From Marivita sp. XM-24bin2 (GTDB lineage: Bacteria; Pseudomonadota; Alphaproteobacteria; Rhodobacterales; Rhodobacteraceae): a stretch of 57,904 nt of DNA. Under the pieces are notes generated by a model. It made no database searches. It was not told the DNA's origin and worked only from the letters and a program-made list of their open reading frames with translations. The translations under genes and the position numbers were made by a program. Shown here one piece after another: positions 32,377 through 37,218 of this stretch; the first letter of the stretch is position 1; the number at the start of each line of letters is the position of its first letter. The stretch spans positions 1 through 57,904 of the forward strand of contig QCWH01000001.1 of assembly GCA_003149565.1 (NCBI GenBank), written 5' to 3'.

Positions 32377-34518
32377 ATGTTTAACATTTCGAAGAAAAGC
32401 ATGCAGTGGGGCGAGGAAACGCTCACACTGGAAACGGGCAAGGTTGCCCGTCAGGCCGATGGCAGCGTGATTGCCACCCTCGGCGAGACCTCTGTGATGG
32501 CCAACGTGACGTTCGCCAAACAACCGAAACCCGGTCAGGACTTCTTTCCGCTGACCGTCCATTATCAGGAAAAATACTACGCAGCCGGTAAAGTGCCGGG
32601 TGGTTTCTTTAAACGCGAGGCACGTCCGACCGAAAAAGAGACGCTGACCGCGCGCTTGATCGACCGTCCGATCCGGCCGCTTTTCGTACCGGGCTTCAAA
32701 AACGAAGTGCTGGTGATGTGTACCGTTCTGTCGCACGATCTGGTCAACGATCCCGATATCGTCGCAATGATCGCTGCGTCTGCCGCACTGACCATTTCGG
32801 GTGCACCCTTCATGGGGCCGATCGCGGGTTGCCGCGTAGGCTATGTCGATGGCGACTACATCCTCAACCCCGAGGTCGAGGATATGGATCAGTTGCGCAA
32901 CAACCCCGAGCAGCGCCTTGATCTGGTTGTCGCGGGCACCAAAGATGCCGTGATGATGGTGGAATCGGAAGCTTATGAGCTGACCGAGGATGAAATGCTG
33001 GGTGCCGTTACGTTCGCGCACGAGCAAATCCAGCCGGTTATCGACCTGATCATTGATCTGGCCGAAGATGCAGCAAAAGAACCTTTCGATTTCCAGCCTC
33101 CGGATTATTCTGAGTTGTATGATGCGGTTAAGGCCGCAGGCGAGGACAAGGTCCGCGCCGCTTATGCCATTACAGACAAGCAAGAGCGCACCACAGCGGT
33201 CTCTGATGCCAAAGCTGCGATCATGGAAGCGCTGAGCGAAGAGCAGCTTGAAGATCCGAATCTCGGCTCCGCACTGAAAAAGCTCGAAGCTTCGGTTCTG
33301 CGTGGCGATGTCGTCAAGACTGGCAAGCGGATCGATGGTCGTGCATTGGACGAAGTGCGTGACATTGTCTGCGAAACTGGCCTTTTGCCACGCACGCACG
33401 GATCTGCTTTGTTCACCCGTGGTGAAACGCAGGGTCTGGTTGTCACCACACTCGGTACAGGTGACGACGAACAAATCATCGACGCGCTGCACGGAAATTT
33501 CCGTTCGAACTTCCTGCTGCACTATAACTTCCCGCCGTATTCGGTTGGTGAAGCCGGTCGCGTGGGCCCTCCGGGACGTCGCGAAATCGGTCACGGTAAA
33601 CTGGCATGGCGTGCGCTTCAGGCGGTTCTGCCGGCGGCAACCGATTTCCCCTACACCATCCGGGTGGTGTCTGAGATCACCGAATCCAACGGCTCGTCTT
33701 CCATGGCCTCCGTGTGTGGCGGTTCGCTCTCCATGATGGATGCGGGTGTTCCGCTCAAGTCCGCCGTCGCTGGCGTTGCAATGGGTCTGATCCTCGAAGA
33801 GGACGGCTCCTACGCGGTTCTCACAGACATCCTGGGTGACGAAGACCACCTTGGCGACATGGACTTCAAAGTGGCAGGTACCGAGAACGGCATCACGTCG
33901 CTGCAGATGGACATCAAGGTTGCTGGCATCACACCCGAGATCATGAAGAAGGCGCTCGCTCAGGCGAAAGAAGGCCGGATGCATATCCTTGGTGAGATGA
34001 ACAAGGCCCTCACTGGCGCTGCTGAGTTCTCTATCCACGCACCGCGTATCGAAACGATGCAGATCCCAACCGACAAGATCCGCGAAGTGATCGGTTCGGG
34101 CGGTAAGGTCATTCGTGAAATCGTTGAGGTTTCGGGTGCAAAAGTCGACATCAACGACGAAGGCATTATCAAGATCGCCAGCCCCAACGGCGAGGCCATC
34201 AAGAAAGCCTACGACATGATCCACTCGATCGTCGCAGAACCGGAAGAAGGCCAGGTCTACAAAGGCAAGGTCGTGAAGATCGTCGATTTTGGCGCATTCG
34301 TGAACTTCTTTGGCAAGCGCGATGGCCTGGTCCATGTGTCCCAGATCGAAAACCGTCGCCTGAACCATCCCTCTGATGTGCTCAAGGAAGGCCAGGAAGT
34401 CTTTGTGAAGCTTCTGGGCTTTGACGACCGCGGCAAGGTTCGCCTTGCGATGAAAATGGTTGATCAGGAAACCGGCGAAGAAATCGCACCGGAGAAAAAG
34501 AAGGAAGACGCAGAGTAA
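32377..34518 (+). CDS. pnp: Polynucleotide phosphorylase
   Basis: 3'-5' phosphorolytic exoribonuclease of the RNA degradosome, 713 residues. Two RNase PH domains flank an alpha-helical linker (about 220-310); RNA-binding loops include [12 protein letters not shown] near 76 and RPIRPLF near 98; the second core has [20 protein letters not shown] near 390 and catalytic aspartates in [21 protein letters not shown] (split: [14 protein letters not shown]) near 485. KH domain ([15 protein letters not shown], about 565) and S1 domain ([15 protein letters not shown], about 627) close it. Of two adjacent ATGs, 32377 is chosen: AGGAA is 6 bases upstream and it yields the family start [12 protein letters not shown]. 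Confidence 0.98.
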
Positions 34519-34545
34519 TCTGTAACTTTCCAAGTGTCTGAAATT

Positions 34546-34573
34546 AAAGCGCCTCTTCGGAGGCGCTTTTTTT
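34546..34573 (+). terminator. Rho-independent terminator of pnp
   Basis: AAAGCGCCTC-TTCG-GAGGCGCTTT, ten perfect pairs closed by a UUCG tetraloop and followed by T residues to 34573. The GGAGG in its right arm (34559-34563) lies 10 bases before the ATG of the CIA30 gene. Confidence 0.95.
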
Positions 34574-35140
34574 ATGTGCAGCCCGGACTATCTCACGCGC
34601 ATGGGATGGAAAGCGATGGTGATTGGGATGATGTTAGCGGGACAAACGGCTGCGGAGACGTTATTTGATGATTTTTCTGGCGAGGCAGACACGCGATGGG
34701 ATTATGTCGCGGATGGAGTGATGGGTGGCGTCTCATCAGGGACAGCCGACATTATCGGATCCGGGGCACAGGCCATACTGCGTCTGCGTGGCACTGTCAG
34801 CACAGAAAACAATGGTGGTTTCATCCAGGTTCGTCGCCGGTTTGACAACGACTGGCCACGGGCAGCCGAGGGATTACGCCTGACAGTTAAAGGCAACGGC
34901 GCCCTCTACTATGTCTTCCTCAAGACGCCGAATCTGTCGCGAATCTGGCATTCGTATCGCGCGTCTTTTGTCGCGCCAGCGCATTGGCAGACCATCGACT
35001 TACCGTTCGACATGTTTGGCCCGTCGCATATGGGTATGCCTGCAATGTATGATCCCCTAGAGGTTACCAGCGTTGCCATCGTGGCCTATGGCGACGACTA
35101 TGAGGCAGATATCTCTGTGCGCGAAATTAGTTTGTTCTAA
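34574..35140 (+). CDS. CIA30 family protein (NDUFAF1-like)
   Basis: A 188-residue protein of the complex I intermediate-associated protein 30 family, a jelly-roll fold known in mitochondria for assembly of respiratory complex I. WDYVADGVMGGVSSG (about residues 42-56) is the signature, with NNGGFIQVRRRF near 77 and the C-terminal VTSVAIVAYGDD. A membrane-leading segment (AMVIGMMLAGQTAA, about 14-27) suggests export to the periplasm. The first ATG at 34574 abuts the pnp terminator and would use the GGAGG inside it; ATGs at 34601 and 34616 are credible alternatives. Bacterial function is unproven. Its TAA merges with the A-run that is the T-tract of a minus-strand terminator. Confidence 0.8.
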   Translation: MCSPDYLTRMGWKAMVIGMMLAGQTAAETLFDDFSGEADTRWDYVADGVMGGVSSGTADIIGSGAQAILRLRGTVSTENNGGFIQVRRRFDNDWPRAAEGLRLTVKGNGALYYVFLKTPNLSRIWHSYRASFVAPAHWQTIDLPFDMFGPSHMGMPAMYDPLEVTSVAIVAYGDDYEADISVREISLF

Positions 35141-35168
35141 AAAAAAGACCCCGGAAAAATCCGGGGCC
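35139..35168 (-). terminator. Strong intrinsic terminator, minus strand
   Basis: Read on the minus strand: GGCCCCGGA-TTTT-TCCGGGGTC followed by eight T residues. The T-tract is only on this strand, so it serves leftward transcripts: the response regulator mRNA and, if real, the small RNA described next. Confidence 0.92.
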
Positions 35169-35223
35169 AGGTCCAACAGGGAGGTGCATATGATGACCCG
35201 CATATGCGACGGGAACTCTTGAG
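35139..35223 (-). ncRNA. Candidate FNR-controlled small RNA, about 85 nt
   Basis: On the minus strand a perfect FNR box (35256-35269) is followed 20 bases later by TTTAAT (35235-35230, five of six to a -10), which would start a transcript near 35223. That RNA would hold a 7-bp stem-loop GCATATG-N8-CATATGC (35207-35186), a single-stranded stretch ACCUCCCUGUUGG with a CCUCCC anti-Shine-Dalgarno-like motif, and the strong terminator at 35168-35139. This is a textbook trans-acting sRNA layout. It lies in the 3' region of the response regulator transcript. Everything except the motifs themselves is inference; the site-to--10 distance is 1-2 bases short of the class II ideal. Confidence 0.45.
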
Positions 35224-35255
35224 ATCCGGATTAAAGATACACGTATCATGCTTCT

Positions 35256-35269
35256 TTGATCTGAATCAA
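35256..35269. promoter_or_regulatory. FNR/FnrL-type binding site
   Basis: TTGATCTGAATCAA, an exact match to the TTGAT-N4-ATCAA consensus of FNR/Anr/FnrL, the oxygen-sensing activators. It lies between the 3' ends of two convergent genes, so it does not precede any annotated gene; the only transcript it could drive in normal geometry runs leftward into the terminator at 35139. Confidence 0.75.
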
Positions 35270-35283
35270 AATCGACCAAGGTC

Positions 35284-35970
35284 TTAAGATACCAAACGAT
35301 ATCCTCCAGACTCTGTAACAAGCAAACGCGCGTTAGAGGGATCTGGTTCAATTTTTTGACGCAAGCGGTAGATATGCGTCTCTAGCGTGTGCGTAGTAAC
35401 GCCGGCATTGTACCCCCAAACCTCGTGCAGCAAGGTATCGCGTGCGACCACGCCCTCGGTGGACCGGTAAAGAAACTTGAGAATGTTTGTTTCTTTCTCG
35501 GTCAAACGGATCTTCTTGTCATCATCCGTGATCAAGAGCTTCATGGACGGTTTGAACGTGTACGGGCCAAGCGTAAAAACAGCGTCTTCGGATTGTTCAT
35601 GCTGACGCAGTTGGGCTCGAATACGTGCCAGAAGCACCGGAAACTTAAACGGCTTGGTGACGTAGTCATTGGCACCGGCGTCCAGCCCGAGGATTGTATC
35701 CGCATCTGAATCGTGACCGGTCAGCATCAGAACCGGGGCCTTAACGCCTTGTTTGCGCATCAGGCGACACAATTCACGGCCATCGGTGTCGGGAAGACCG
35801 ACGTCGAGGATAATCAGATCATAGAGCTGTTCCTTCACCCGACTCATCGCAGCGGTGCCGCAATCGGCTTCGAACACTTCAAAGTCTTCTGTCATAACAA
35901 GCTGCTCGGCCAGCGCCTCGCGCAGATCGTCATCATCATCGACCAGAAGGATATTCTTAAGCTGTGCCAT
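35284..35970 (-). CDS. OmpR/PhoB-family response regulator, CenR-like
   Basis: Two-component DNA-binding regulator, 228 residues. The receiver domain has the acidic pocket VDDDDD near residues 10-15, the phospho-accepting aspartate in LIILDVGLPDTDG near 55, threonine in MLTGHDSD and lysine in YVTKPFKFP near 105. The C-terminal winged helix has EKETNILKFLYRSTEGVV and THTLETHIYRLRQKIEPDP. The sequence strongly resembles the CenR-type regulators conserved in Rhodobacterales, which control envelope genes; that identity is from memory and tentative. No histidine kinase gene is adjacent. It is monocistronic, followed by a 115-base untranslated region with an FNR box and a strong terminator. Confidence 0.93.
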   Translation of the reverse strand: MAQLKNILLVDDDDDLREALAEQLVMTEDFEVFEADCGTAAMSRVKEQLYDLIILDVGLPDTDGRELCRLMRKQGVKAPVLMLTGHDSDADTILGLDAGANDYVTKPFKFPVLLARIRAQLRQHEQSEDAVFTLGPYTFKPSMKLLITDDDKKIRLTEKETNILKFLYRSTEGVVARDTLLHEVWGYNAGVTTHTLETHIYRLRQKIEPDPSNARLLVTESGGYRLVS

Positions 35971-36129
35971 CGTTGTGTTTCTCCGTCGGTTTCGAGAGAC
36001 ATGGGCAAGGCGTTGCGTGCGGGCAAGAATTGCTGCAAGTGTTTCACAGCCTCGTGTATGCAGGGGCCAAATGTTTCATAAATTGGGGCCTTTTGTTGCA
36101 AAAGGCCCGTTCTGGATGGCTTCGATTCC

Positions 36130-37218
36130 ATGACGCTTGCGCCTGATATCACTGATCTTTTGGCCCGGGCACGGGCAGATCTTCGTATGGGCGTGCCGAT
36201 TGTCCTTGGTACACAATCGGGGCTGTTGGTGCTTGCCGTGGAATCCTTGGGGCCCGAACGGTTGCGGGATGTGATTGCGCTTGGTGAGGACGTAGACCTC
36301 GTTTTGACGGGTCGACGTGCCGCCACGCTCAAGGCCAGAGCCTATGATGGCGATGTGGCACGGGTGGTGTTGCCCGACGATGCCAGCCTGCGCTGGGTAC
36401 AGGCGGTGGCTGATCCTGCTGACGACCTGTCGCATCCGATGAAAGGACCATTGGTGACGCGGCGCAGCGGAGATCCCACGTTGCACCGCCTTGCGGTCAC
36501 CTTGGCAAAGACGGCGCGTCTTTTGCCTGCGGTAATTACCATGGAAGTCCGGGACGCAAAGGCGTTTGCTTCTGAGCATGCCTTGACGCTGATTGACCCG
36601 GTTGTCGCAGCCCCTCGCCTGGGCGCCTCTGCCGTGTTTGATGGCGTGGTGTCTGCACGAGTTCCTCTGCGCGCGGCCCAGAATGCGCGCTTGCATGTGT
36701 ACCGCCCCGAAGATGGCTCAGAGGAGCACTACGCCATCGAAATCGGCCGCCCGGATCGGGCGAAACCGGTCCTCGCGCGGCTTCACTCGGCCTGTTTTAC
36801 GGGGGACCTGCTGGGTAGTCTCAAATGTGATTGCGGCCCGCAATTGAACGGCGCACTCGCGGCGATGGGCGGCGAGGGGGAGGGCGTTCTGCTCTACCTA
36901 AATCAGGAAGGGCGCGGGATCGGCCTTGCCAACAAGATGCGCGCCTATGCCCTTCAGGATCAGGGGTTCGACACGGTCGAGGCCAACCACAGGCTGGGCT
37001 TTGAAGATGACGAACGGGATTTCCGAATCGGGGCGGAACTCCTGCGCAAACTGGGGTTCGGCTCGGTCCGGCTGATGACGAACAATCCCGCCAAGATTGC
37101 GATGATGGAGAAACAGGGCATTACCGTTGCTGAACGTGTGCCGCTGAAAGTCGGTGAGAATCCACACAATACAGACTATCTCGCCACCAAGGCGCGCAAG
37201 TCGGGGCATCTTCTGTGA
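36130..37218 (+). CDS. ribA: GTP cyclohydrolase II with N-terminal extension
   Basis: Catalyses the first step of riboflavin synthesis, GTP to diaminohydroxyphosphoribosylaminopyrimidine. The C-terminal 190 residues are the enzyme: zinc ligands C222, C233 and C235 in HSACFTGDLLGSLKCDCG, then LLYLNQEGRGIGLANKMRAY near 255 and the arginine-containing NPAKIAMMEKQGI near 318. The N-terminal 165 residues look like a degenerate DHBP synthase (RibB) domain: DADASRWVQ-type positions remain in part, but the RibB acidic metal motif is not seen. This two-domain RibA is common in Rhodobacterales. The stop overlaps the next start as GTGA. Confidence 0.93.
   Translation: MTLAPDITDLLARARADLRMGVPIVLGTQSGLLVLAVESLGPERLRDVIALGEDVDLVLTGRRAATLKARAYDGDVARVVLPDDASLRWVQAVADPADDLSHPMKGPLVTRRSGDPTLHRLAVTLAKTARLLPAVITMEVRDAKAFASEHALTLIDPVVAAPRLGASAVFDGVVSARVPLRAAQNARLHVYRPEDGSEEHYAIEIGRPDRAKPVLARLHSACFTGDLLGSLKCDCGPQLNGALAAMGGEGEGVLLYLNQEGRGIGLANKMRAYALQDQGFDTVEANHRLGFEDDERDFRIGAELLRKLGFGSVRLMTNNPAKIAMMEKQGITVAERVPLKVGENPHNTDYLATKARKSGHLL

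Follow-up and report, generated by a model that had tools for sequence, protein, structure and literature searches.

A conserved FNR-type class II promoter predicted upstream of the small RNA SorX in Rhodobacteraceae

We analyzed a 57,904-nt stretch of the Marivita sp. XM-24bin2 genome (hereafter the window) and conclude that the small RNA SorX, encoded behind the response regulator gene cenR, probably has its own oxygen-controlled class II FnrL promoter here, alongside the processing of cenR read-through RNA (probability roughly 0.8). As the initial annotation of the locus had supposed, an FNR-type class II promoter before the sRNA is a prediction strongly supported by conservation, through exact boxes at many loci and a −10 element anchored to them. 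Comparison between genomes at the sequence level establishes what the RNA is and that the predicted promoter unit is conserved. Both the sRNA and FnrL binding close to it are known from one species, Rhodobacter sphaeroides, where they have been described in the literature; new here is the conserved FNR promoter unit across genera. The locus is laid out as follows.

35284–35970, minus strand: cenR (ompR-1), response regulator gene of 228 aa (ORF)
34574–35140, plus strand: convergent ORF (ORF list)
35256–35269, minus strand: FNR/FnrL box, TTGATTCAGATCAA in minus-strand reading, centred at −41.5 from the predicted start
35253–35255, minus strand: AGA flank directly after the FNR box; AG conserved, on the SorX side only
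35236–35228, minus strand: CTTTAATCC, comprising CTT and the −10-like element
35228–35233, minus strand: −10-like element TAATCC (T−12 A−11), with CTT before it
35221, minus strand: predicted FNR-dependent transcription start, placed by class II geometry
35141–35214, minus strand: SorX sRNA, Rfam RF02784, full model 1–73
35186–35207, minus strand: SorX 5′ hairpin of 7 bp, arms 35207–35201/35192–35186, with covariation among 147 distinct sequences
35172–35184, minus strand: CCUCCCUGUUGGA core, candidate seed
35184–35177, minus strand: CCUCCCUG
35139–35168, minus strand: intrinsic terminator, 9-bp stem (35168–35147) and U8 (eight T, 35146–35139)

The sRNA is SorX, an already described family. 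RF02784 was the sole gathering-level Rfam match within the window (71 bits against a gathering cut-off of 46.6, E 2e-15), which rules out a new RNA family and overturns the earlier statement that no sRNA had been described at this locus. The RNA lies in the 3′UTR of cenR and outside its coding region, rather than nested in the 3′ region of the response regulator gene as first annotated; its position behind a CenR-like regulator held, as did the 7-bp stem-loop and the eight-T terminator. The T-run of the terminator overlaps the stop codon of the convergent plus-strand gene. Folding of the predicted SorX RNA gave a structure more stable than that of shuffled sequences (z = −2.9; 2 of 200 shuffles as good). 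The CCUCCCUG stretch, previously described as exposed, is open in the centroid structure and partly paired with the 5′ end of the RNA in the minimum-energy structure, so that exposure is likely, not certain. Identity with SorY (RF02651) was rejected, the score being 38.7 bits against a cut-off of 111. The sub-threshold SorY match spans 35140–35206 on the minus strand, and the two RNAs may be related or share targets. Two further SorX-like matches in the same genome, G000:C10:53962-54016 (L032) and G000:C59:22558-22616 (L033), also scored below threshold with 42 and 34.5 bits, respectively, and are possibly SorY or other relatives.

SorX is nearly ubiquitous in the family. With one genome per genus, 282 of 295 genomes had a match at E ≤ 0.001, 232 of them above the gathering cut-off, and a single match, in Caulobacter and under the cut-off, was found among 14 control genomes. 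In 142 of the 146 SorX matches at the 144 loci examined, the RNA follows a CenR-like C-terminus. The seven pairs of the 5′ stem are kept via double changes, with 134–145 of the 147 distinct sequences paired at each; the pair at the foot of the stem, for instance, is G-C in 81 sequences, C-G in 27 and T-A in 12. UUGGA, which follows the alignment anchor, is retained in 145–147 of the 147; CCTCCCTG served as the anchor itself and is therefore invariant by selection. The RNAalifold consensus of a quick alignment recovered the 5′ stem and missed the terminator stem, which we attribute to the ragged 3′ alignment. The window's CenR and RibA are 96.9% and 90.6% identical to those of Marivita lacus, and 99.1% and 93.6% identical to those of a MAG.

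Between the cenR stop codon and the convergent ORF lies the exact palindrome TTGATCTGAATCAA, the FNR box that the initial annotation had pointed out. In the form TTGATN4ATCAA it occurs once in the window and 16 times in the genome. Such a box alone is weak evidence, as 1.6 sites with at most one mismatch are expected per window, and its weight therefore comes from conservation. The TTTAAT hexamer noted at near class II distance is present at 35235–35230 on the minus strand, and its TA is conserved at box positions 37–38. With the box centre at −41.5, T37 and A38 fall at −12 and −11, where the bacterial −10 element begins. The box being centred 41.5 bp before the predicted start, with the −10 at the matching distance, the putative promoter has class II geometry. 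A generic sigma-70 scan of 34000–36500 returned no promoter, as expected if an activator site stands in for the −35 element.

To assess conservation, upstream regions were taken from 144 loci, one per genome, representing the better-scoring half of the 282 matching genomes (G028, where the contig ends, was left out). From the matches found there, L137 and L142 were set aside for want of the CCTCCCTG core and T-run, and L058, L080, L127 copy 2 and L152 because no CenR tail was recognized by pattern, although L152 was later found to be cenR-linked. The resulting 142 matches come from 139 loci; the second copies of L077, L079 and L145 were counted as long-UTR, and that of L145 is among the box-bearing loci below. 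As SorX nt 1 we took the position 30 nt ahead of CCTCCC; it may differ by 1–2 nt from the Rfam start. By this measure, at least 40 nt separate SorX nt 1 from the stop codon in 112 of the 142 cenR-linked matches (long UTR), and 30 have less (short UTR).

An exact TTGAN6TCAA at −75 to −36 was present in 38 of the 112 long-UTR matches, from different genera, compared with a mean of 0.2 and a maximum of 2 when the long-UTR sequences were shuffled 200 times; the 30 short-UTR matches had none. A position-weight score for box plus −10 exceeded the 99.9% shuffle threshold in 50 of the 112 long-UTR matches, a number that includes the 38 exact-box loci on which the score was trained, and in none of the 30 short-UTR matches. 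The other 62 long-UTR matches had no promoter-like match above the threshold. TTGA and TCAA are invariant in the box alignments by selection, and the remaining positions were not selected. There, the inner box positions stand out, as does the flank after TCAA (A in 32, G in 36 and A in 20 of 38), with AG at box positions 15–16 conserved on the SorX side only; conservation is weaker at positions 19–21 (G in 26, C in 22 and A in 27 of 38). Further downstream, T37 is found in 33 and A38 in 29 of the 38 loci, and the TA dinucleotide occurs at 37–38 in 28 of them, the next best offset reaching 10. The T at −7 is weak (16/38), and the −10 of the window, TAATCC, does not have it. The majority of boxes agree with the FNR consensus TTGAYNNNNRTCAA.

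The strict architecture of exact box and exact core was found in 67 of 394 family genomes, although visual inspection suggests a chance match in 2 or 3 of these (G046, G311), and a backwards-pattern control gave none. Together with the shuffles, this control excludes a chance origin of the box. Among named records, at least 117 stretches carry the architecture, including Ruegeria, Roseovarius, Shimia, Tateyamaria, Phaeobacter, Leisingera and Marivita. Of the 117 listed, 110 are cenR-linked and 89 have TA at 37–38; this set is not independent, since presence of the box was its selection criterion and some of its members recur in the genus set. A plus-strand promoter was considered and rejected: by eye there is no TA at 37–38 in reverse, the opposite flank is unconserved and that side runs into cenR. 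Elsewhere in the window's genome, the 15 remaining exact boxes have TA at 37–38 in 2 of 30 directions.

Some loci show other arrangements. At L067, L107 and L131, where the UTR is 16–17 nt long, an exact FNR box reaches into the end of cenR, its position being −20 or −21 relative to SorX nt 1. Class II initiation from this box would begin within SorX itself, so that the box may have another role at these loci. Separately, L024, L055, L022 and L027 have GTGA-type palindromes (e.g. GTGATCCGGATCAC) at −48 or −49, suggesting another Crp/Fnr protein.

Box and SorX are 48 to 64 nt apart, depending on the locus, which allowed us to ask what the −10 is tied to. Of the 17 loci whose box is at −51 or beyond, 11 show TA at box positions 37–38, and 16 do so when 1 nt of tolerance is given; at SorX positions −12/−11 it is found in 1 and 2 of the 17, respectively. 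Far-box loci among the named stretches listed behaved in the same way, with 29 of 43 box-anchored (37 within 1 nt) and 0 of 43 SorX-anchored (9 within 1 nt). The TA thus keeps its distance to the box, not to SorX, and is not simply part of the surroundings of the RNA. When the window was aligned with 12 named records, picked for CenR similarity and all with a box, the box with AAAG, the −10 and SorX stood out between cenR and the terminator, and the spacers diverged.

In the window, the predicted start at 35221 (box position 49) lies 7 nt before the Rfam start and would give an RNA of ∼81 nt. The initial annotation had placed the start at 35223, for an RNA of about 85 nt; the sRNA layout it described stands, and class II geometry moves the start by 2 nt. 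In the commonest arrangement, with the box at −48 to −50 (21/38), initiation is predicted at SorX nt 1, which corresponds to the mature 5′ end attributed to RNase E in R. sphaeroides, or 1–2 nt before it; at other loci the predicted start is up to 16 nt before SorX nt 1.

We propose the following sequence of events. At low oxygen, FnrL in its 4Fe-4S form would bind the palindrome at 35256–35269 and, contacting RNA polymerase as a class II activator, would allow initiation at a promoter for which the −10 element at 35233–35228 suffices; we infer activation here, rather than repression. Transcription from 35221 would yield the ∼81-nt RNA ending at the SorX terminator, which would need little or no processing. 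In parallel, read-through transcription of cenR would supply SorX via nuclease cleavage, as in R. sphaeroides. SorX would then pair with mRNAs via the CCUCCCUGUUGGA region. Pairing with many mRNAs at their Shine-Dalgarno sequences, as the initial annotation suggested, would be one possibility, but the single target examined, potA, lent it no support, its start pairing no better than others. The duplex energy predicted for the core with the start of potA in this genome was −18.5 against a median of −17.7 for 67 starts, a simple energy that leaves out accessibility and uses guessed start sites, with comparison starts from six-frame window ORFs of at least 150 aa, many of which are not genes.

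For R. sphaeroides, we turn to the genome G051 (L020), which, from the agreement of coordinates, we take to be strain 2.4.1. Rfam places its SorX start at 2598225. A weaker box, TTGCGTGAGATCAA, lies upstream, in the region 2598148–2598196, where it overlaps the cenR stop codon and has TATAAA exactly at positions 37–42; its score of 6.1 is above the 99% (3.3) and below the 99.9% (8.9) shuffle threshold. The FNR-dependent start predicted from it, 2598196, agrees with neither of the 5′ ends in print, 2598182 and 2598224, the latter being the mature end attributed to RNase E (PMC6238624). Reading the pre-SorX 5′ end as the FnrL start was accordingly discarded, as it is 14 nt off the prediction. 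FnrL binding has been mapped in this species: in 2014, a ChIP-seq site was described in the putative promoter of RSs2461, and Imam et al. could not establish an effect of FnrL on this RNA (PMC4263372). RSs2461 is the old name of SorX (PMC5036791). The TTGCGTGAGATCAA box with its TATAAA may explain that site.

In R. sphaeroides, the host gene of SorX is given as RSP_0847 (cenR/ompR-1; PMC6238624), named CenR in PMC9275681, and SorX is cut from its mRNA by RNase E and another nuclease (PMC6238624, PMC9438474). RNase E-dependent maturation and Hfq binding are both reported (PMC6238624, PMC9438474, PMC5036791), SorX is counted among the RpoHI/RpoHII-dependent sRNAs (PMC5036791), and it appears as an example in a review of 3′-end-derived sRNAs, where potA is described as repressed by SorX (PMC9438474). 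Under iron depletion, SorX declines relative to its precursor, which was read as slower RNase E processing (PMC8625941); an alternative reading would be that an iron-sulphur regulator, for example FnrL, is lost. Our literature search turned up no account of an FNR promoter that is shared by SorX loci of different genera, the main SorX paper (Peng et al. 2016) being outside its coverage; the R. sphaeroides CenKR paper does not mention SorX, and the term sRNA does not occur in the R. capsulatus FnrL paper.

Second and detached copies of SorX give a view of the box away from cenR: 4 of 6 such copies have a box of their own (2 exact, 2 TTGC variants). In G190 (L303), the first copy begins 4 nt after the cenR stop and has no box, and the second, 644 nt further and behind the terminator of the first, has an exact box at −55. 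G210 (L304) has two copies 153 nt apart, with an exact box, also at −55, at the second only. SorX lies ∼2 kb beyond cenR in G088, with TTGCGTCAGATCAA, and on a 5.7-kb contig without cenR in G236, with TTGCGATAGATCAA. Neither SorX copy has a box in G283 (L306) or G022 (L307). In G190, G210 and G088, a CenR 90–91% identical to that of the window is on the same stretch as SorX. By these counts, copies unable to lean easily on cenR read-through tend to own a box.

These copies bear on two other explanations. FnrL bound in the 3′UTR could repress or roadblock RNA polymerase coming from cenR and so lower processed SorX at low oxygen. FNR proteins can repress, and the site is in a presumably transcribed 3′UTR; a roadblock, however, has no need for a −10 at class II spacing, yet the element is conserved and box-anchored, and the detached copies keep their box. 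We regard this explanation as highly improbable. It is also unlikely, if less remote, that SorX derives solely from processed cenR read-through RNA, the box being irrelevant or a relic. The nucleolytic origin described for R. sphaeroides speaks for it (PMC6238624, PMC9438474), as do the 30 matches packed within 40 nt of the cenR stop codon, all boxless; but a neutral remnant would not preserve box, flank and −10, nor the fixed distances between them, amid diverging spacers, and copies behind another SorX terminator or ∼2 kb past cenR retain the box.

A different question is which protein uses the site. The window's genome encodes an FnrL with the CX2C...CX2C motif, as well as reaction-centre genes, and it contains several Crp/Fnr genes, with five strong HTH_Crp_2 matches. 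In some genera, another member of the family (e.g. CrpK, RedB or a nitric-oxide type regulator) might therefore act here, which would fit the binding determinants that CrpK and FnrL have in common (PMC4263372) and the few GTGA-type palindromes. Against this, most boxes match the FNR consensus, and the ChIP site published at SorX belongs to FnrL (PMC4263372), so that we hold such a substitution to be a minor prospect, though one to be kept in mind. The distribution of the box was set against that of FnrL and of photosynthesis genes. It had no significant association with FnrL: of the 50 genomes with a box, 1 had no FnrL match, compared with 6 of the remaining 89 (p = 0.42), with 20 of the 36 genomes without a match listed as such and 16 inferred from gaps. 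Nor was it associated with photosynthesis genes, which 17 of the 50 and 39 of the 89 possess (p = 0.28).

Taking FnrL-driven initiation as the preferred reading for the window, we further suggest, with somewhat better than even confidence, a dual origin of SorX across Rhodobacteraceae: cleavage from cenR mRNA under stress and class II FNR initiation at low oxygen would produce nearly the same 5′ end, lineages would have shifted between these two unrelated routes, and the role of SorX would reach beyond photooxidative stress to general regulation at low oxygen, since the link to the box holds in non-phototrophs too. SorX hard against the stop codon would then be processed only, and some genomes with two copies would have one of each kind; two-copy genomes offer a natural experiment on how processed and promoter-driven sRNAs evolve into each other. 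If many genera also start SorX from an FNR promoter, at the same nucleotide or close to it, processing as seen in R. sphaeroides may represent just one of two ways to make the RNA, and the published FnrL ChIP site would gain a concrete promoter to test. Physiologically, oxygen limitation would be tied to a stress-resistance RNA in bacteria with and without photosynthesis.

Parallels exist among known sRNAs. DapZ and MicL are 3′UTR sRNAs with a promoter inside or behind the gene and a terminator shared with the mRNA; we know of no switching between promoter-borne and processed forms across genera for sRNAs of this type. To our knowledge, E. coli FnrS is neither attached to a 3′UTR nor also processed from an mRNA. 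It is likewise a short terminated sRNA, and is under direct FNR control of the kind predicted here (general background; see also PMC4263372), but it occupies another locus and is described as having no sequence similarity to RSs2461 (PMC4263372). SorY (RF02651) has the CCUCCCUGUUGGAC core and terminator layout in common with SorX, but differs in its 5′ hairpin and, by the published description, is transcribed in R. sphaeroides from a promoter of its own (PMC6238624). Closest is SorX of Rhodobacter/Cereibacter sphaeroides itself, with the same RNA family, host gene, structure and core, and an FnrL ChIP-seq site; the RNA there is described as cut from mRNA, whereas the window and dozens of genera have a stronger predicted class II FNR promoter, whose predicted start coincides with the mature 5′ end or slightly precedes it.
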